Positions 42,019 to 52,149 of a stretch of DNA of 64,000 nt are shown here, one piece after another. The notes beneath the pieces were generated by a model that had not been told where the DNA came from, did no database searches, and was given only the letters and a program-made list of their open reading frames with translations. Position 1 is the first letter of the stretch. Each line of letters starts with the position of its first letter. Origin of the DNA: an uncultured Porphyromonadaceae bacterium (GTDB taxonomy: Bacteria > Bacteroidota > Bacteroidia > Bacteroidales > Muribaculaceae); assembly GCA_948467675.1 (NCBI GenBank), contig CAOKFI010000005.1, positions 1-64,000 of the forward strand. The letters are read 5' to 3'. Position numbers and translations under genes: made by a program.

Positions 42019-42426
42019 TTATTGCCGTGGTTCGTCAGGAGTCTGCGGACGGTCGGGATCTACAGAAACCGCATCTGATGCTGTAATATCGTCGTATCGT
42101 TTGTTGTCAAGGCGTCTGATGCCGCCCTCGCCGTTGCCCGAAGTTCCGGAATTGGTGCGCAGCATGTCGCCGCATATCGCTATGTCCCAGTCTGTCCGTT
42201 TTGCCCATTGGGCATCGGCTTCGGTATCATCTTTGGCCGAAGATCCAACCACAGTATTGTTCTCGAGAGATATATACGTCCATTCCGTATCGGATATCCC
42301 CGAAACGGTCAGTTCGGTATCGGTTGCAGGCGCGTCTGATCCATTGTTTTCATCGCTGCTGCAGGAGGCCAGGACTATTATGCCTGCCAGGGCGAAGACT
42401 GTCGGTATGAAGTGCTTTAGTCTCAT
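42019..42426 (-). CDS. HmuY-like lipoprotein, short form
   Basis: Predicted lipoprotein (lipobox LASC, Cys22) with the HmuY signature: EWTYISLENNTVVG, then KRTDWDIAICGDMLRTNSG and TSGNGEGG. HmuY of Porphyromonas gingivalis is a secreted haem-binding lipoprotein of about 216 residues; this one has 135 and ends soon after the RTNSG motif. It has no histidine in the mature part, so His-His haem ligation is not possible; one methionine is in the motif. It may bind another ligand or be a truncated form. It is the last gene of the operon and its start overlaps the protease stop. Confidence 0.75.
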   Translation of the reverse strand: MRLKHFIPTVFALAGIIVLASCSSDENNGSDAPATDTELTVSGISDTEWTYISLENNTVVGSSAKDDTEADAQWAKRTDWDIAICGDMLRTNSGTSGNGEGGIRRLDNKRYDDITASDAVSVDPDRPQTPDEPRQ

Positions 42427-43991
42427 AATCGGCTGTGTTTGATGGTTAGTTTTCCTGATGATGGATCATATCCGTTGATCATCATTTTCACCGGCTTGCC
42501 TGTAGCTGTTTTCACTACGAAAGGCGATGACACTGGAGCCGGTGTACCGGTAAGGAGCCAGCGCCACTTGCTGCATGAGGTATATATGGATATCGGTTCG
42601 CCGGTGGTCATGACGACTTGTCCTCCTTTGAGTTCTAAATCATGCTGGGGCGACAGATATTGTATGCCGCTGACGAGATCTATTACGGAAAATTCTATCA
42701 CTTTGCCGGTTCCTGAGGCAGCCGTACGGCGTACCGTAAGGAAAAATTTTGGATCCTTAAACCGGCTGACATTATCGTAGAACCGGCTGAAGTTGAATGC
42801 TACTTCCATCTCGGTCGGAGCATTGTAACCCTGCATCGGTTCAGCTCCTCCCTGACGGTTCATGATAGGCGATGTCAGTTCCACTGTCGGTATTTTTGCA
42901 TCTGCTCCGTCGGCAGCACCGAGCATGAACGACAGCTCATTGCGCTTGTTGTAGTCCACTTTCACCTTGAAGGCCAGTTTGGGTTCTCCGATCACAGGCT
43001 TTACCATATAGGCATCGGCATCGCCTTCTGTCAGACCTCCTATTGACGGATCGGCAAGCATCAGACTGTAGGGTATATAGCATTTTCCGCTCGAAGCCCA
43101 GTCCTCGCCCCAGCTGTTGGTGAATATGAATGCCCCGCGCTCGGTATCGCTTATATTGCCGTCGCCATCGAAGTCGTATTCTATCGTATCGTCATAGCCT
43201 GTCAGGGTTATTGCATGAGGCCCGTCGTTACCTTCCTTAGTCACGATATGGCGAAGACCGGTTGAGTTCGGACCGGTATAGCTTTTGAGTCCCCAGTCAT
43301 CGGTCTTGTACGATATTACGGCTATGCCGCCTGTAGCGCTCCCGTCTCCGTGATCATACAGATAACGGCGCATCAGATCGATACCGTCACGTGACTTCAG
43401 GTTGATCTTGGTATAGCTCTCGACTCTGTATTTCATCGCATCGATGTAGGTCTGGTAACCGGATACCCATTGGGTCTGTTGAGGATAGGAATAGGCCTTG
43501 TCCTCCATCTGCACCATATTCAGGGCTCCGCAGTCTTTCATCAGATCATAGCCGAGAAACGCGTGCGAACCCTGGTTGCTGCCCTCATTGAGGAAGTTCC
43601 AGGTGAAATGATAGCAGAATACATTGGCAGGATCCGAAGCGTCACGGTCGAGCAGACGGTTTACTTCGTATGTAAACGTATATCGCACACCCGATGCCTG
43701 TGAGCATGAGTTGTTGGAGCCTTGATTGAATACAGCAGGGAAGTATTTGGATTTTGTATTATCGACAGAGCCGGGAAGTGTCTCCGACGATCTGCGTACC
43801 TGGGGACGCCATGACGGTATGGCATCCTTCTCTGCTTGCTGCTGCGGAGTCAGAGGCAGACGGCTGAACTTATAATCCTGAGCCGAGATGTATTCCGGCA
43901 CTGATACAGAAGCGCCGAAAGCGAGAATGCACATGAGTCTGTGCAATCCCGCTTTAGTGGATAGTGAAAATTGAATTTTGGACTTTATCAT
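42423..43991 (-). CDS. C1 family (papain-like) cysteine protease with EF-hand loop
   Basis: Secreted protease of 522 residues. The signal region is hydrophobic at about 15-37 (RLMCILAFGASVSVPEYISA). The papain triad is intact: oxyanion Gln90 and Cys96 (NQGSNNSCSQASG), His259 (GPHAITLTGYDD) and Asn292 (FTNSWGEDW). Between His and Asn there is a perfect EF-hand calcium loop at 273-284 (DFDGDGNISDTE). About 190 C-terminal residues are beta-rich and of unknown fold. It lies between a C25-like protease gene and a HmuY-like gene. Confidence 0.87.
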   Translation of the reverse strand: MIKSKIQFSLSTKAGLHRLMCILAFGASVSVPEYISAQDYKFSRLPLTPQQQAEKDAIPSWRPQVRRSSETLPGSVDNTKSKYFPAVFNQGSNNSCSQASGVRYTFTYEVNRLLDRDASDPANVFCYHFTWNFLNEGSNQGSHAFLGYDLMKDCGALNMVQMEDKAYSYPQQTQWVSGYQTYIDAMKYRVESYTKINLKSRDGIDLMRRYLYDHGDGSATGGIAVISYKTDDWGLKSYTGPNSTGLRHIVTKEGNDGPHAITLTGYDDTIEYDFDGDGNISDTERGAFIFTNSWGEDWASSGKCYIPYSLMLADPSIGGLTEGDADAYMVKPVIGEPKLAFKVKVDYNKRNELSFMLGAADGADAKIPTVELTSPIMNRQGGAEPMQGYNAPTEMEVAFNFSRFYDNVSRFKDPKFFLTVRRTAASGTGKVIEFSVIDLVSGIQYLSPQHDLELKGGQVVMTTGEPISIYTSCSKWRWLLTGTPAPVSSPFVVKTATGKPVKMMINGYDPSSGKLTIKHSRL

Positions 43992-44007
43992 ATCTCGTTG
44001 TCTTCGT

Positions 44008-46209
44008 TTAACGCTTCTGGACTGCGCTCTTGCGGTTGTCCTCTATGCGGTTGTAAGTCTTCAGAGCTGTGTTGCGGACGCGTTCCGATCTCGATTTGTC
44101 CTTGCTCATATTCAGGGCGACAGCGCTGATATCCTTGTGACGGAATGACTGCCGGAACCATCCGAGAGCCTCGAGAAGGTCTACGCACACATCCTCGTCA
44201 GGGCAAGTCTGCACATACTCCAGCAGATCATCCACCTTGTAGTGCATGTGCGAGTTGCGCAGAGTGCGTATATTCTGCAACTTTGATTTCTTGGGTAAGG
44301 AATCGTTGTTGCACAGATTCTCCACATCCTTCAGCCGGTAGGAATCGGCATATTTGCGCAATGCGTGAGCCACATAACCGCGCACGGCGTCGCCCTCGGC
44401 ATAATCCAGCGGATCGAACGAGCGGTCTAGTTCGGCCACAAGCGAGTCGGCAGGATAGAGCGCGGCTGTCTGGCTTATGCCGAATTCTATGCGCTTGCCG
44501 GTATTGTTGCGTTTGGCGACACGTATTATTGCGGGTACGAGTTTCTGATCGCCGCGTTTGGCTATGAAATTTAGGCCATAGCGCTGGATCATCTCGTAGC
44601 TGTCGTCGACGGCCATGTCAAGACATGCCACGAAGTTGTCGTCGTCGTAGAGCGAGAGCAGTGTCATGGCCTCCATCCGCACTACTTCCGACGGATCGTT
44701 GGTATATATGGCCAGCAACTCGTCGGAACTGATCATATCGGCATCTGCGAGCTGTCGCATAGCCATTGCACGTACTGCCGGATATTTGTTGTCGAGCTGT
44801 CCTTTCCACCACGATGCAGGCTGCTGCAGCATATCGTTGGCATCGAGATCCTCTACTGCGGAGGTGAAATGAAATGCGGGATCGCCTATGAAGTGGCTCT
44901 CGAGATATGTGTTGTATTTTACAAGATTGCCGAGACGCATGCCGAGACCGGCGAGACCGAGATAACGGTCGGACCATTTGTCCTGAAGTACGTTGACACT
45001 GTTGCCTATAGTGGCGGCAGTCTCGCCCTCGTCGAAGATATAGGCGCCTGCTATATATTTGTCGCGATGGAACGAGCCGTTGAAACAGGCATCGAGTATG
45101 ACGAGCCGGCAGTTAGGAGTAAAGTCTGCGAAATCCTCTACGTAAAGGTTGAGTTTACGGTTCTCGATAGAATCGTGTATACGGTGTTCGGCGCTTTCCT
45201 CATCCTCGAACCATTCGACAGGAAGACCGCCCAGATTCCGGGCTATGTTGGTGCGCACACTGTCGTCCGGCTGGCCTTTGCCACGGTGGCGGCGATATAC
45301 ATAGTTGGCGTAATCCTTGATGGTGTGTACCATTTCGAGAGGAGTCTCGGGATCCGGCTCGTTGTTGAGGTATTCGATCTCGACATCGCCGTGATGGTGC
45401 AGGAGCGCTACATCGAGATTGCGGCGCTGGAGTTCCGACATCAGGCGTCCTTTGACCGAACGGTCGCGTTTGTGGTCGATATAGTCTATTCCCTGACGGC
45501 GGGTGTGCATCCAGGGGAAGTTCTGCAAGTGCGCACCTTTCTCATCGATACGTGCCATGATCGACTCCGACACATAGCCGTGTCCGCTGAAAAACAGCAG
45601 CTGGTCTATGATATTGTTTTCCTGACGCAGGCGTACGATTTTCGCAAGATAACGTTTCAGAAGATCGTATTTGTTGCCGGATCCGTCGTCGATCGGCTTT
45701 ATACGGCCTGAGTATATTTCAGGCGACAGATACTGCGGAGAGTCGGCGCGAAGTGAGTAGTAGTGATACAGAGCATTGGCCGAATCCTGTTTCAGATAAT
45801 CGAACTTGAGATCGAAATCATCGTAGAAACGGTCGGACGGAACCGATGATTCATCCCAGGGATAGAGCTCCTGGTTCATCTTGAATGCTGAGGTGAGGTG
45901 CTGCGCGTCGCGTATCATTGGGATAGGTATGTCGCCTATGAACACAGCTCCCTCGATCGGATTTTTCTTGTCTTTGTAGAGTTTGACAAGCTGTTTGCGT
46001 ATATTGTCGGGATTCCCCGAAGTGTCTTTGATGATGATCGGTTTGAGTCCGTCCTGCTCGATGGATCTGGCGTATGCGTCTACTTCCTTTGCGGCATGGC
46101 TGTAGCTATCGGCATCGATTACGATAGCGAATCCGCGGTTAGCGGCGAATGAGGGAGCTGCGGCTCCGGCAATCAATGCGGCGATCAGGCCGTATTTCTT
46201 TAAATTCAT
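44008..46209 (-). CDS. Gingipain-like (C25) protease with HEAT-like repeats
   Basis: Secreted protein of 733 residues with a cleavable signal (YGLIAALIAGAAAPSFA). The caspase-fold part shows C25 signatures: VFIGDIPIPM, SDRFYDDFD, SPEIYSGRI, then a histidine in LLHHHGD (271-275) and the likely nucleophile Cys375 in VILDACFNGSF, followed by GETAATIGNS. The C-terminal half (about 460-733) is a series of helical pairs resembling HEAT repeats (YPAVRAMAMRQLADADMIS). A type IX secretion C-terminal domain is not obvious. It is 16 bp upstream of the C1 protease gene. Confidence 0.82.
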   Translation of the reverse strand: MNLKKYGLIAALIAGAAAPSFAANRGFAIVIDADSYSHAAKEVDAYARSIEQDGLKPIIIKDTSGNPDNIRKQLVKLYKDKKNPIEGAVFIGDIPIPMIRDAQHLTSAFKMNQELYPWDESSVPSDRFYDDFDLKFDYLKQDSANALYHYYSLRADSPQYLSPEIYSGRIKPIDDGSGNKYDLLKRYLAKIVRLRQENNIIDQLLFFSGHGYVSESIMARIDEKGAHLQNFPWMHTRRQGIDYIDHKRDRSVKGRLMSELQRRNLDVALLHHHGDVEIEYLNNEPDPETPLEMVHTIKDYANYVYRRHRGKGQPDDSVRTNIARNLGGLPVEWFEDEESAEHRIHDSIENRKLNLYVEDFADFTPNCRLVILDACFNGSFHRDKYIAGAYIFDEGETAATIGNSVNVLQDKWSDRYLGLAGLGMRLGNLVKYNTYLESHFIGDPAFHFTSAVEDLDANDMLQQPASWWKGQLDNKYPAVRAMAMRQLADADMISSDELLAIYTNDPSEVVRMEAMTLLSLYDDDNFVACLDMAVDDSYEMIQRYGLNFIAKRGDQKLVPAIIRVAKRNNTGKRIEFGISQTAALYPADSLVAELDRSFDPLDYAEGDAVRGYVAHALRKYADSYRLKDVENLCNNDSLPKKSKLQNIRTLRNSHMHYKVDDLLEYVQTCPDEDVCVDLLEALGWFRQSFRHKDISAVALNMSKDKSRSERVRNTALKTYNRIEDNRKSAVQKR

Positions 46210-46261
46210 GATTTAGGATGATTGTTGATTCGTTTGGGATTATGCAGATATGATGATGTCG

Positions 46262-47830
46262 TTAGAATATGAATCCGGCCGAGACACCGAGATAGAATCT
46301 GTCGGCATCTTTCATCGTGGTCGTCTTATCGGTCTGGCTGCGGTAGTCGGCCGACAGTTTTATGTCAAGGACTGATCCGTAGTGCATGATACTGAGCGGC
46401 AGGGAATACGACAGTTCGAGTCCGCCTTCCCAGTAACCGGCAGTCATTGCGTCGAAAGCCGGACGGGTATATTTGTTCATGATTATAGAGTAGGTCGATG
46501 GCATGTCGTCGATCTTGATGGAGCTGTCGATCGACATGCGGTATCCGCCGCGTACAGTAGCGCCCAGCCATGACTTTCTGATGGCAAACCGTTTTGTCGC
46601 GTTTGCCGATATATATGCGTTTGTATAGTCCTCTTTTGCTCCGTAAATGCGGTTTTTGATCTCAGTGCGTTCGATGTCGGCGCTTACATTGACCGAGACC
46701 GTCGGGAGGTGTGAGGCGTTTGTGCGGTCGAAACGGTATGCCACACCTGCTCTGGTGTCATGTCCTTCGAGATTGTCTGATTCGTTGACGACTTCATATA
46801 TGAGATTGCCGTCGGCATCGGTCGACTGTTTCTGGGTATACCATGTTCCGGTAGAGTTGTGGGTGGCGGCGGAGACCGTCACGTTGTGTACCGCATTTAG
46901 GCCATGCCGGAACTGAAGCCTGTTGCCCAGGGATATGCCGTTGCCTGAATAACGGCCGCCTTTGTATTTGGTGACTGATGATCCGTCTGTGGCATTCTCA
47001 TACTCGCTGTAATATCCGATGTCGATAAAATCGGATATAGCAGACATTTCGGCCTTATTGATTGAATATTGCAGATGTGCGCCGTACCGCATTCCGTCAT
47101 ATTTGCGGCGATAGCCTACTGCATCTTTGGATTCGAAGACTCCAAGACCTTGAAAAAGAAATACATATTGCCGTGTGGTGGTGCGGACTACCGTATGGGT
47201 GACTTCTTCCGACAGCCAGCCTACATTTGCCGATAAGCCGACAGTATGCCGTCCTATGCGGTATTCGGCTCCGGGAGTGAGACTGAATCTCATCCCTTTG
47301 ATTTCAGGGCGCGGGTCTTTTTGAGTTGCGGAACTTCCTACGTCGTAGGTGGCTTTGATTCCGATTTTTAGATTGTCTGTCGGAGAGTATGCCGCGATGC
47401 CGTCAAGTGCGAATGTCTCGTTGTTGAACTTGCTTATAATCGAGTCGCCTATTATGAACGGATTGTGACCTGATACGAACAGGGTGTTGTTCCATCTACG
47501 GTCTCCGAGCGACTGGTTGTTGTAGACCAGACCACCGCTGAAAATGACTTTGCCGACTTTTTTCATACCGGTGAATGATGCCGACCACGCGTTTATCTTG
47601 CCGGCATCGTCGATGGCATGGAGCTTGCCTCCGGTATGGCCATATTCGACCTTAATATCGGCTATGTCGCTGATCGGCATGTAGTATATTGATACGGGAT
47701 TGTCGCTTCCGTAGGAGATGTTGCCGAGATATTGCCGGTCCTGATATGCGACTTTGCTGTCAGACTGAGCCTGTGATGCCAGTGTCGCTGAGGCAATCAT
47801 CACGGATATGCTGTATAGGCGGAATCTCAT
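46262..47830 (-). CDS. Predicted outer-membrane beta-barrel (DUF6850-like)
   Basis: A 522-residue protein with a signal peptide (YSISVMIASATLASQAQ) and alternating strands throughout, such as IKVEYGHTGGKLHAIDDAG and SFTGMKKVGKVIFSGGL, ending in an aromatic FIF as barrel proteins do (YLGVSAGFIF). The layout resembles DUF6850 proteins found beside TonB-dependent receptors, whose function is unknown. It is 52 bp upstream of the C25-like protease gene. The DUF assignment is from memory and is moderate. Confidence 0.68.
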   Translation of the reverse strand: MRFRLYSISVMIASATLASQAQSDSKVAYQDRQYLGNISYGSDNPVSIYYMPISDIADIKVEYGHTGGKLHAIDDAGKINAWSASFTGMKKVGKVIFSGGLVYNNQSLGDRRWNNTLFVSGHNPFIIGDSIISKFNNETFALDGIAAYSPTDNLKIGIKATYDVGSSATQKDPRPEIKGMRFSLTPGAEYRIGRHTVGLSANVGWLSEEVTHTVVRTTTRQYVFLFQGLGVFESKDAVGYRRKYDGMRYGAHLQYSINKAEMSAISDFIDIGYYSEYENATDGSSVTKYKGGRYSGNGISLGNRLQFRHGLNAVHNVTVSAATHNSTGTWYTQKQSTDADGNLIYEVVNESDNLEGHDTRAGVAYRFDRTNASHLPTVSVNVSADIERTEIKNRIYGAKEDYTNAYISANATKRFAIRKSWLGATVRGGYRMSIDSSIKIDDMPSTYSIIMNKYTRPAFDAMTAGYWEGGLELSYSLPLSIMHYGSVLDIKLSADYRSQTDKTTTMKDADRFYLGVSAGFIF

Positions 47831-47896
47831 AATATGGGTTTTCTGTTCGGTTTCGATCCTTTCGGGGATCTATGAGGCAGGGGAGAGGGTGAAAAT

Positions 47897-47930
47897 GTAT
47901 GGAGATCCGGAGACTTCCGGATCTCCATAC
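47897..47930 (-). terminator. Intra-operon hairpin between the DUF4876 gene and the barrel gene
   Basis: A perfect 14-bp stem (47897-47910 with 47917-47930, loop of 6) lies in the 137-bp gap, followed on the minus strand by ATTTTC. It looks like a leaky terminator or an RNA-stabilising stem that lowers expression of the protease genes relative to the receptor genes. Confidence 0.6.
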
Positions 47931-47967
47931 TTATAAACTTATAAAGTTGTCTGGCGCAGACTGTTGA

Positions 47968-49209
47968 TCAGTCAGCATTAGTGGGGAGGGTTCCCGGTGT
48001 TGGTGTGCCTCCGCCGATGATGAAGTCGTTGGAAGAGTTGTTTGTATCTTTCAGGATCACTTTTCCTTCGGCGGTGACTCCGGCCACTTTGCGTCGGAGG
48101 CTTTTTCCTGAATATTCGCCGTTTGATACTCCGTCAGCGCCTGTGTACCATGCCATGCCGGCATCGTCCTTTGCCTCGATACGTTTGATATGGCATGCAG
48201 GATCTGCCGATACGATATCGATAGCGTCGAGGATGCAGTCGGCCGGAATGACGAGGCTGGTGCTGCTCCCGCCGGGGATTGTAGCTATACTCGAAGCGTC
48301 GGCAACGTAATCGATAGGAGACATTCCGTTTTTGAGGCGGGCCATGATGATCGGCTGGCCTTCGGTGGCGGGCATCATCTCGCGTCCCCATGTCTTCCAC
48401 AGGAATGTCATGGCGGGAATACCGTCTATGCGGGTGTCGGCAGGCATGGCGTTGTCGGTGTACAACTGCCAGTCGGCGCCTGACAGGTTTACAGGAGAGG
48501 CTTTGTCGCCTTCAGCAAGAGTGCGGGCGCTGTGATCTATCGGGTTGGCTGCTACGATCACGCTCGTACGGGGCTGTATCGGGAAATCGGTGCCATTGCC
48601 GGGGAAGCACTGTACATGCGATGTCAAAGGATATTTGCCATCAGTGTAAGTATCGCCTGTCATCCATACCGATGGCTGGTCTTTATTCCATGTGGAAGGA
48701 GCAAGGCCAAAATCTACAACACCAAGAATAATGCCGTCGAGATACTGTACTTCGTCGGTATTGTTGTATATTTCATAGAATGCGTCCTGGAAATAGAAAT
48801 CGGGAACTCCGGAGAAGTAAACTTCCTTGAATATAATAGAGCTTCCTACAGAGGCGATCAGTTCGATAGATACAGTCTTGTCGGCGAATACCTCGACACC
48901 GGTCATTACACCATTGAGGTTGAGATCGTCGGTTTTGCCGGAGGCGGTGAAGTTGTATGTGCCGGGTACCAGGCTTAACGAGGCCGTTCCGGTAGCAAGG
49001 TCGATCTGTGCTACCGATTCCTCGGCAGTAGCGGTGTTGAATACGGTCACTGCCATAGCCTGTACGTCGGAGAGGCTGTTTACATCGGATGGAAGAGTGA
49101 CGCTTACCTTAACCGTGTGACGGATCACTTCTTCGTCGTCTTTATCGGAACACGATGTGAATCCGATAAGGATTGCCATGATAGGCAACAGGTAAAAGAA
49201 TCTTTTCAT
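47968..49209 (-). CDS. DUF4876-type lipoprotein partner of the receptor
   Basis: Lipoprotein of 413 residues with lipobox FTSC (Cys20). An N-terminal Ig-like domain at about 30-120 (VRHTVKVSVTLPSDVNSLSD-type) is followed by a lamin-tail-like domain: IIFKEVYFSGVPDFYFQDAF, EIYNNTDEVQYLDGIILG. The arrangement matches DUF4876 proteins beside TonB-dependent receptors in Bacteroidota. It probably sits on the cell surface and captures the ligand. It is 48 bp downstream of the receptor gene. Confidence 0.75.
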   Translation of the reverse strand: MKRFFYLLPIMAILIGFTSCSDKDDEEVIRHTVKVSVTLPSDVNSLSDVQAMAVTVFNTATAEESVAQIDLATGTASLSLVPGTYNFTASGKTDDLNLNGVMTGVEVFADKTVSIELIASVGSSIIFKEVYFSGVPDFYFQDAFYEIYNNTDEVQYLDGIILGVVDFGLAPSTWNKDQPSVWMTGDTYTDGKYPLTSHVQCFPGNGTDFPIQPRTSVIVAANPIDHSARTLAEGDKASPVNLSGADWQLYTDNAMPADTRIDGIPAMTFLWKTWGREMMPATEGQPIIMARLKNGMSPIDYVADASSIATIPGGSSTSLVIPADCILDAIDIVSADPACHIKRIEAKDDAGMAWYTGADGVSNGEYSGKSLRRKVAGVTAEGKVILKDTNNSSNDFIIGGGTPTPGTLPTNAD

Positions 49210-49257
49210 TACTTAAAAATTGATTGAAAAATATTGAATGCTATTGCAGGTAATCTG

Positions 49258-52149
49258 TCAGAACTTGAGTTTGACTTCAGCACCGAAATACATAGGTATG
49301 GTGATATCGCGCCAACCTATGGCTGTCTGCAGTTTATATGATTTCGTTATTTTCAGGAAGTTGTTGGCCATAAATGCGATCTCGAGCACTTTGCCGAATT
49401 CCTTGCTGAGCCGGAAATTAAGTATCGCCGATATCGGCAGACGCTCGGTGTCGAATGCTTTGTCGTGGGAATACGACGACAGCATGTAGCGATAACGGGA
49501 ATCGGTCTCGAATCCGGACTGCCAGGGTGTGAATGTTCCGTCCGTATTCATGAAGCCTACCGGATTTATATAGTAGTTGTAACGTCCCGGCGAGAACGGA
49601 TCTTCCATGCGGTAATAAAGATCGTTGCCTGCTTCATCTTCATATATAGTCCGGTATGATTCCGCCCATATCACCTGCAGAGTCGTAGTAAATATCATCT
49701 GCAGTGCGGGTATATGTGTTATGAAACGGAAGTTGGTGTTGAACCGCGACGATATCTTTCCGCTTCCACCCGGCATGAGCGGCAGCCATGGATATGTGTC
49801 GCCGTTGTATGATGCCGATACGGGAGAGTAATGATCCTGTGTCGAGCGGCGTTTGATATGTATGTAAGCGCCATCGATCGACACGGCAGTTCTGATAGCC
49901 GGAATGGATGCGAGCGAGAACTGATATTCCACGCCCCATTTGTCGGTCTTGATGCTGTTGGACGGCGTCACGTACGTATAATAATATGTGTGCGGAGTTA
50001 CCGCAGCATCGTTCCATACACCGTCCTGCTGATACTGAACGTGGCCGTCCTGATAGCGTACGGCATCGATGCCGTCAGGTGTGCTGTATCTGTTGGCATT
50101 CATGACCACCGGCTGGGCCACGTAGCCGAACTCGTTCTTGTGCCGCTCGTAAAAGAAGTTGAGCATGCCTTTCACTTTGCGGATCTGGAATGTCAGACCG
50201 GCTTCGGACTTGTAGCTGTAGGCCGGTTTCAGATCCGGGTTGGTGGTATCGTCAATGACTTTGGTGGTCATTACGGCTATCGATTTTCCTTTTTCTCCCG
50301 ATACATCGTCACGGAACAGCATCGAGTACGATGATACGTCGAAATAGGCCTTGTCGGGATAGAATTGCAGCAGAGTAGGGGTTTTCATTCCGACACCGTA
50401 TCCGCCTACAAGACTCAGATCGTCGAACAGCCGGTTGTTAGACCGATTCAATATATTGTAGTTGATGTTGATACGCGGTTCGACTGTGGTCATGTTGCCG
50501 CGTCGTGCCTGAGTCCGGTCGATGAATATTGTGGACAGGCGCGCTCCGGCCTGTGCTGTCAGCGATGTGGATCCGATAGGGGTAGTATATTTGTCTTCTG
50601 CGAACCATGAAAGCACATTCATGGCCGGGATCGAGCTGTACGGGCGCGGACGTATGGATTGGTTGTTGGTTACCTGTGGCGGATTCAGTTCGTCGAATGT
50701 CATGCCTTGTCCGTAGTTTTTGTTGAATCTCCATTCGGCGCCGATCTTAAAGTTCATGAATGCGCCACCGCTCATCAGCATGAGTTTGTTGGCTTTGATC
50801 TGTGCGTACAGGTCAAGCGGTTTGCCTACTATCTTGCTCCATGAATAATATGTCGATGACATATAGAATGTCTGATATTCTTTGTCGGTAGTGGCATTTC
50901 CTACCGGTGTGATGCCGGACTGCAATATTACCTGGCGGCGAGAGTAGTCCGATTCGTAAAGATAGTTGGCAGAGGCTGTATATGACAGTCCTGATATCCA
51001 CGGGAGGTTGAGGTTCCAGTTACCATCGATGCTGAAACGTCCGCCTATAGTTTTGTTGTTGATGCGTTCGTCGTACATCAGTTCAGGATCAGTTTTTTCG
51101 TCATTGAGGCTGCTGAAGAATGAGAATCTAACGTTGACCGACAATGGCTTTGACGCTTTCATGAATACATTGCTGTAGCCGGTAGAGAATGTTACGCGGT
51201 CGTAGCCGATATATTTTTTGCGTATATCGGCGTATGACTGGGAATAGTCGGCGGAAAAGTTTAGCGAGCTGCCGTTGCTGAATCCGAAACCTTTGCCAGC
51301 ATATACCATTTTGGAATATGGGTCGGCCTTGAGTTTTACTTCAAGCGGAGTGGCTCCGGCTCTTGATTTGACAATTACCGCACCAGAGGTGAGGTTGCCG
51401 TATTCGACAGAGGGAATGCCGCGTATCACTTCGACGGATTCGATGTTGTCTGGTGAGATAAGACGCAGATCCACGCCTTTTCCTGCGGTGGAGTGTGATG
51501 GTGTGGTTCCGGCTTTGCTGACACTGAGAGACTGCATGTTGGCATCGTTGGACATCGGAGCGCCGTCGACTACCACCAGTGTGCCCATGGCGTTGTTGGA
51601 ATTTTCGTCGAGTTCGCGTATGTATGCCTGACCGACGTTGTTGAGATCGGGATTTTTTGTGACGTTGCCCGGGACGAGCTGCATCATGTCTTCCAGGCTT
51701 TTGGGTTGTATGTGCTGTACTGCAGACCGGTCGATGCGTGATGCCGATCCCAGTTTCTGTACGTTTGAAGTCACCACGACTTCATTGAGCGCCAGACTCA
51801 ATTGCTGCAGCTTGATTTTCAGCGGCTGTGTCTTCGACGAGAGTTTTACCGTCTCGCTATACGGCTTATAGCCGGTAGACTTTACTTCTATAGTATATGA
51901 TCCTGGACGAAGGCCGGCAATACTGAACGCACCTTTTATATCGGTCTCGGCCCAAAGGTTCTGATCGGGAAGTGTGACGAGGACGAACTCAAGAGGTTCG
52001 CCGGTCTCGGCATCAGTTATGTGGCCGGAAATGGTCAGCCCCGACGGGGCTGAAGCCAGACATGTCTGGCTTCCGAATACTAAGCACAGAATCGATATTA
52101 TCGATGGCAGGAGCTTTTTGCAAATGCGGTTAATGATCAGTATTGACAT
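49258..52149 (-). CDS. TonB-dependent outer-membrane receptor with carboxypeptidase-like N-terminal domain
   Basis: A 963-residue receptor. A signal peptide ends near SQTCLASAPSG. A carboxypeptidase-regulatory-like domain at about 40-115 (ISGHITDAETGEPLEFVLVT) precedes the plug (NEVVVTSNVQKLG, MGTLVVVDGAPMSND) and a 22-strand barrel ending in AEVKLKF. Its ligand is unknown. It is first in the six-gene operon, with two proteases and a HmuY-like protein downstream, pointing to uptake of a protein-derived ligand. Confidence 0.9.
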   Translation of the reverse strand: MSILIINRICKKLLPSIISILCLVFGSQTCLASAPSGLTISGHITDAETGEPLEFVLVTLPDQNLWAETDIKGAFSIAGLRPGSYTIEVKSTGYKPYSETVKLSSKTQPLKIKLQQLSLALNEVVVTSNVQKLGSASRIDRSAVQHIQPKSLEDMMQLVPGNVTKNPDLNNVGQAYIRELDENSNNAMGTLVVVDGAPMSNDANMQSLSVSKAGTTPSHSTAGKGVDLRLISPDNIESVEVIRGIPSVEYGNLTSGAVIVKSRAGATPLEVKLKADPYSKMVYAGKGFGFSNGSSLNFSADYSQSYADIRKKYIGYDRVTFSTGYSNVFMKASKPLSVNVRFSFFSSLNDEKTDPELMYDERINNKTIGGRFSIDGNWNLNLPWISGLSYTASANYLYESDYSRRQVILQSGITPVGNATTDKEYQTFYMSSTYYSWSKIVGKPLDLYAQIKANKLMLMSGGAFMNFKIGAEWRFNKNYGQGMTFDELNPPQVTNNQSIRPRPYSSIPAMNVLSWFAEDKYTTPIGSTSLTAQAGARLSTIFIDRTQARRGNMTTVEPRININYNILNRSNNRLFDDLSLVGGYGVGMKTPTLLQFYPDKAYFDVSSYSMLFRDDVSGEKGKSIAVMTTKVIDDTTNPDLKPAYSYKSEAGLTFQIRKVKGMLNFFYERHKNEFGYVAQPVVMNANRYSTPDGIDAVRYQDGHVQYQQDGVWNDAAVTPHTYYYTYVTPSNSIKTDKWGVEYQFSLASIPAIRTAVSIDGAYIHIKRRSTQDHYSPVSASYNGDTYPWLPLMPGGSGKISSRFNTNFRFITHIPALQMIFTTTLQVIWAESYRTIYEDEAGNDLYYRMEDPFSPGRYNYYINPVGFMNTDGTFTPWQSGFETDSRYRYMLSSYSHDKAFDTERLPISAILNFRLSKEFGKVLEIAFMANNFLKITKSYKLQTAIGWRDITIPMYFGAEVKLKF

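Follow-up and report, generated by a model that had tools for sequence, protein, structure and literature searches.

A TonB-receptor operon of Bacteroidales with an exchangeable protease slot and an apparently divided HmuY fold

Why would two proteases of different clans be encoded in a row with a TonB-dependent receptor and a lipoprotein that resembles HmuY? The question is raised by six open reading frames that span positions 52149 to 42019 of the window, the whole 64,000-nucleotide stretch of DNA analysed here, all of them on the minus strand. The first gene encodes the TonB-dependent receptor (TBDR; 49258..52149, 963 aa), in which Pfam recognizes a CarbopepD_reg N-domain, a plug, and a barrel. 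The second encodes a DUF4876 lipoprotein (47968..49209, 413 aa; Pfam 4e-28) whose lipobox is followed by an acid-rich stretch (CSDKDDEE), a type of signal associated with surface lipoproteins in Bacteroidota. The third encodes a DUF6850 protein (46262..47830, 522 aa; Pfam 7.5e-87) resembling an outer-membrane barrel. Next come a 733-aa protein predicted to be a C25-fold, gingipain-like protease with C-terminal HEAT repeats (44008..46209) and a 522-aa papain-like (C1) protease (42423..43991). The last gene (42019..42426) encodes the HmuY-like lipoprotein of 135 aa.

The genes are separated by gaps of 48, 137, 52, and 16 bp, and the stop codon of the C1 gene overlaps the start of the lipoprotein gene in a 4-bp ATGA (42423-42426, minus strand). 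The order, single strand, short gaps, and one overlap described in an earlier sequence-only reading were thus all recovered. The strong terminator placed at the end by that reading was found as well: a GC-rich hairpin of eight pairs followed by a T tract (41985-41966, minus strand), 33 bp past the last stop codon. Such stems are not rare in the region (28 found versus 12.6 expected), although this one is rightly placed. These observations, together with the recurrence of the gene order described below, support a single conserved operon-like unit in which two proteases from separate clans are predicted to be coupled with a TonB receptor.

The complete six-gene set was found in the window and in loci L022 (identical to L036), L023, L024, L037, and L100. 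A further contig, L028, starts within the C25 gene, leaving just the final three genes visible. In other words, the order recurs in six genomes besides the window, one of them partial, and is therefore not a product of chance. These seven genomes belong to two families, L100 coming from a different family than the window. To judge from its named relatives L024, L028, and L029, the window itself comes from a member of Muribaculaceae. Another locus, L025, has the C25-like gene and lacks both the C1 and the HmuY-like genes. The co-occurrence in other Bacteroidales that had been proposed as a check is borne out by the six genomes, and a core of the operon is conserved more widely.

How far does this core extend, and what varies around it? 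DUF6850 was used as an anchor, and its neighbourhoods were read both in relatives and across 393 sampled Bacteroidales genomes. This gave 110 loci, excluding the window and one duplicate genome. A TonB receptor lies upstream of DUF6850 in 104 of the 110, and a DUF4876 protein is present in 107. The position after DUF6850 is far less constant across the 110 loci. Of these, 21 have one to three copies of the C25-like protease there, 15 have an M16 protease (~940 aa in most cases), 32 have a set comprising an ABC transporter, DUF4857, a 205-aa lipoprotein, and PepSY, 11 have other genes, and 28 have nothing. The C25-like, M16, and ABC/PepSY modules are mutually exclusive, never occurring together at one locus in the survey. 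The ~940-aa genes were expected to encode M16 proteases because their length equals that of FusC/PqqL, and Pfam confirmed this prediction, which had been made before scanning. Individual loci carry yet other peptidases in the slot: an S46 peptidase with a DUF4953 met-zincin in L126 (4265-9671), an S46 peptidase in L136 (1369-7687), and a C1_2 peptidase together with M16 in L150 (6288-10372). On a FastTree receptor tree with a weak backbone, slot content changes at least 23 times (C25-like 3, M16 9). By sequence comparison, the survey shows a core of TonB receptor, DUF4876 lipoprotein, and predicted DUF6850 barrel, with an exchangeable slot behind it. The six-gene form is one variant, and the most elaborate, of this wider operon type.

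The ABC transporter set occupies the slot at, for example, L039 (9548-13324), L046 (4115-7603), and L050 (669-4471), and at about 30 more loci. This module resembles ferric-reductase modules. A Cys/His-rich motif in its 205-aa lipoprotein (CSHLCAHGGRK, CTHTCQHGATK) has the look of a metal-binding site.

The slot also bears on the possibility that the proteases process the outer-membrane proteins or lipoproteins of their own operon and not a nutrient. Such a role would fit the joint encoding of proteases and membrane proteins. However, since the core occurs in 28 loci with an empty slot and in 32 with the ABC set, processing cannot be generally needed, and we consider this explanation very unlikely.

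What kind of protease is the 733-aa protein? Residues ~26-450 form the C25 domain, and HEAT repeats make up the C-terminus. In Pfam the window's own protein matches HEAT only, with no C25 match, and 4 of 33 relatives match C25 (best 1.2e-4). Searched by sequence against the PDB, the family profile likewise found HEAT proteins only, and a fold search was needed to reach C25: the AF2 model (pLDDT 89) has gingipain RgpB as its best PDB match in Foldseek (E 1e-6). His273 and Cys375 are invariant in the family alignment (A1) and are the candidate catalytic pair. The C25 assignment of the sequence-only reading therefore holds at the level of fold and in some relatives, but not as a Pfam match of the window's own protein. 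The family is nearly limited to DUF6850 operons, which account for 20 of its 22 strong matches; the remaining two belong to a separate locus in one genus. A search of one family added a further C25-like locus with the same layout. In one genus the C25-like protease is followed by conserved genes of ~480 and 392 aa (L236, 87-5031; L237, 10008-14964; L107, 10269-15184), and two of these three cases lie away from any DUF6850 core. Behind DUF6850, the C25-like/HEAT proteases stand three in tandem in L027, L029, and L084, and two or more copies are present in L030, L086, L088, and L107. Such rows of up to three copies suggest several specificities.

The 522-aa protein consists of a papain domain (~70-331), a middle beta domain (~332-455), and a C-terminal tail (~456-522). 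Its identification as a C1 protease by the earlier reading is well founded: although its Pfam papain match is weak (0.053), Gln90, Cys96, His259, and Asn292, the papain active-site set, are invariant in alignment A2, and Foldseek matches the model to cathepsin-like folds. Proteolytic activity is predicted. The papain and middle domains are widespread, with a match in 119 of the 393 genomes, and almost all of these matches end near model position 460, before the tail. The papain-like proteins exported by the type IX secretion system (T9SS) in Bacteroidales share the papain and middle domains (model positions ~15-460) but end in a T9SS sorting domain, as found in all four complete relatives tested outside Muribaculaceae (L218, L219, L221, and L223), whereas the operon form ends in the tail described below. 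Because the matches stop near position 460 and complete relatives end in a sorting domain, the tail is, judged from these alignments, a separate domain that stands in these operons where relatives bear a T9SS tail. Two relatives from Muribaculaceae, L204 (4787-9469) and L205 (239-4792), are proteins of 1518-1561 aa in which the papain and middle domains come first and long repeat regions follow. Their C-terminal ends resemble T9SS tails, yet neither matches TIGR04183 at E 0.01.

Where would the two proteases act? Both carry a Sec-type signal, by inspection, but neither has a lipobox or a T9SS tail (TIGR04183). The M16 proteins of sister loci likewise have a plain Sec-type signal without lipobox or T9SS tail. 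The 733-aa protein ends in HEAT repeats, unlike gingipain with its T9SS sorting domain, and the window's genome does encode T9SS (SprA) and proteins with sorting tails. Secretion of the two proteases by T9SS was rejected, as neither showed a sorting domain. The earlier description of the two as secreted proteases is thus not sustained, and from the signals present, a periplasmic or outer-membrane-tethered location is likelier than release into the medium.

The last gene and the C1 tail are best considered together. The 135-aa lipoprotein, with a LASC lipobox and a Cys22 that is invariant in alignment A3, matches Pfam HmuY at 6e-11, covering only positions 2-62 of 157. The short form, 124-135 aa, is kept in relatives (alignment A3, and in L028), and it is therefore not a broken gene. 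The missing part of HmuY seems to lie in the neighbouring protein. The first clue came from the PDB, where the papain profile weakly matched the C-terminal portion of a HmuY structure. Two C1 tails were then recognized by Pfam: the match in L100 spans HmuY positions 110-157 (E 1.4e-4), and the one in L028 spans 66-152 (E 0.18). Coverage of the HmuY model is thus complementary: 2-72 in the lipoproteins and 66-157 in the C1 tails. In hhalign, the half-HmuY lipoprotein aligned to the N-half of full-length HmuY with a probability of 99, and the C1 tail aligned to full-length HmuY with a probability of 93.7 (E 1.9e-7, from one pairwise comparison), while the papain and middle domains, as controls, reached 0.1-0.2. 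An HMM of the C-half built from five canonical HmuY proteins only was run on 12,002 ORFs. At E < 1 it retrieved HmuY proteins and the C1 proteins, plus two weak fragmentary matches (L158 and L086), and each of the seven C1 proteins had its best match at the extreme C-terminus. Only the L100 tail matches strongly; taken singly, the window's tail scores weakly (E 0.055) and depends on the family profile. The best 50 Foldseek matches of the complete C1 model were papains, none of them a HmuY. The modelled tail has strands at 490-494, 500-509, and 514-518, of moderate confidence (pLDDT ~70-74). A division of the HmuY fold, with the N-half (~strands 1-6; 42019..42426) on the small lipoprotein and the C-half (~strands 13-15; 42426..42626, minus strand) on the papain tail, is thus well supported by these profile comparisons. 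A literature search of openly accessible journal papers found no split HmuY.

What has been lost at the split? The palm of HmuY is a sandwich in which sheet I is built from strands 1, 6, and 13-15 and sheet II from strands 2-5; the haem ligands, His134 on strand 8 and His166 on strand 11, sit on the thumb and fingers (PMC2671838). With the lipoprotein accounting for roughly strands 1-6 and the C1 tail for roughly strands 13-15, the split point is, as mapped by alignment, the haem-binding insertion, which is missing. The ligand-bearing thumb and finger strands have no counterpart in either half, the half-HmuY lipoproteins have no invariant His in alignment A3, and the C1 tails have no conserved His or Met in the part matching HmuY. 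As a member of the HmuY family, then, the lipoprotein has the lipoprotein signal and lacks both the full-length domain in one chain and the axial His pair. Together, the two chains might re-form the palm, though not the haem site. The capture of a released ligand that had been ascribed to the HmuY-like lipoprotein finds no footing here, and for want of the ligand strands haem capture was given up as the leading interpretation.

The two halves may instead have a mechanical role. We tentatively propose, with a little less than even confidence, that the HmuY C-half replaces the T9SS tail and that the N-half lipoprotein encoded by the overlapping gene completes the fold, giving a docking clip that holds the protease at the TonB receptor without a type IX system. 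The alternative is that the two halves do not bind each other and are independently folding remnants, for example of a fusion and a duplication. The divergence of the C1 tails in most family members and the moderate confidence of the tail model would suit this explanation. However, the tail and the half-HmuY lipoprotein are paired in all seven loci, across two families and with a tight or overlapping junction, and the short form of the lipoprotein is conserved. A half-HmuY alone would also be an incomplete sandwich, as sheet I draws on strands from both halves (PMC2671838). We regard independent remnants as unlikely. Cys85 (DIAICGD) is invariant among the half-HmuY lipoproteins, and a Cys (SCS) near residue 475 occurs in five of the seven C1 tails; an interchain disulfide is possible, though it is not consistent over all pairs.

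What might such an operon take up? The link to iron gained support from annotated relatives: BT1933-39, with a HEAT-repeat protein, DUF4876, and a TBDR, is induced 3.5-7.4-fold by iron depletion (PMC10434189). In the same study, BT3625-33 (ABC, PepSY, DUF4857, DUF4876, and TBDR) was induced 38-128-fold and PG1019-22 21-215-fold (PMC10434189), all three being equated with the variants described here by annotation and not by sequence comparison. One reading of this link is haem piracy of the gingipain/HmuY type in one operon, with secreted proteases degrading host haemoproteins, the lipoprotein catching haem, and the TBDR importing it. The gingipain-like C25 fold, the HmuY homology, and the iron-responsive relatives, again by annotation, speak for it. 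Against it are the half-HmuY without ligand strands or invariant His, the proteases without a T9SS tail, and the absence of both HmuY and C25 from most core loci, and we hold it to be improbable. Of the degrade-and-capture unit related to haem that was first envisaged, the conserved operon-like unit, the two proteases, and the iron link stand, but capture by HmuY and secretion do not.

Another possibility is that the operon imports or removes a peptide unrelated to iron, for instance a bacteriocin, a chelator of peptide nature, or a small cofactor synthesized as a peptide, and that the proteases degrade or mature it. Unrelated protease clans swapping in one slot would fit any peptide substrate, but the alternative ABC/PepSY module points, through its likeness to ferric-reductase modules, to iron. 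A precedent exists in YddB, which is encoded next to the protease PqqL and imports PQQ (PMC12124388), yet the iron induction of annotated relatives (PMC10434189) argues the other way. We rate this explanation as rather unlikely.

The reading that we prefer, with about an even chance of being right, is a protease-coupled outer-membrane uptake operon, probably for iron bound to protein or peptide, in which a two-chain HmuY palm docks the papain. The receptor and the DUF4876 protein would bind an iron-bearing protein or peptide. The two HmuY halves would associate into a palm lacking the haem-binding thumb and fingers, and this palm would keep the papain next to the receptor, attached to an outer-membrane lipoprotein. 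Cleavage of the bound protein or peptide by the proteases, at the outer membrane or just beneath it, would then free iron or a cofactor for uptake. If this is true, protease-coupled nutrient import extends to the dominant Gram-negative gut bacteria, and one functional slot can be filled by unrelated proteases. Two genes each making half a beta-sandwich would constitute a protein-anchoring device and a new way to hold a protease at a nutrient receptor, and the DUF4876/DUF6850 operons left unexplained in published iron stimulons would become directly testable.

How does the operon compare with known systems? The earlier statement that no named system has this set needs revision, as protease-associated import systems follow the same logic (PMC6793856) and the core operon type, though unnamed, is already represented in published iron stimulons. 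The iron-induced DUF4876 operons (PMC10434189) have the TBDR and DUF4876 in common with the window, and BT1933-39 also has the HEAT-repeat protein. BT3625-33 has ABC, PepSY, and DUF4857 as in the ABC variant of our survey. No function is described in PMC10434189 for these two operons or for PG1019-22. The gingipains and HmuY/HmuR of Porphyromonas gingivalis share the C25 fold, a HmuY-related lipoprotein, a TonB receptor, and the iron link. The window differs in that its genes form one operon, its C25 domain is fused to HEAT repeats and lacks a T9SS tail, and its HmuY is halved, without the haem-ligand strands.

The closest logic is found in the Fus systems of protease-associated import, FusA-FusC of Pectobacterium and YddB-PqqL of E. 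coli, in which, as predicted here, a TonB receptor stands beside an exported protease (PMC6793856). Other proteases or cytochrome c peroxidases also occur in place of FusC (PMC6793856). The likeness extends to iron-linked expression in relatives and to the M16 proteases of sister loci, which match FusC/PqqL in size. As a FusA, however, the receptor was rejected: no PDB chain matched it by sequence at E 1e-10. Because the receptor is no recognizable FusA and YddB is the PQQ importer PqqU (PMC12124388), we put import of a protein forward as a proposal. The same search of openly accessible journal papers found no protease-associated import system in Bacteroidota. Whereas the Fus systems belong to Proteobacteria, the window operon belongs to Bacteroidota and adds the DUF4876 and DUF6850 proteins and the split HmuY. 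It also has predicted cysteine proteases (C25 and papain) and not M16 as in Fus, while M16 fills the same slot in 15 sister loci.
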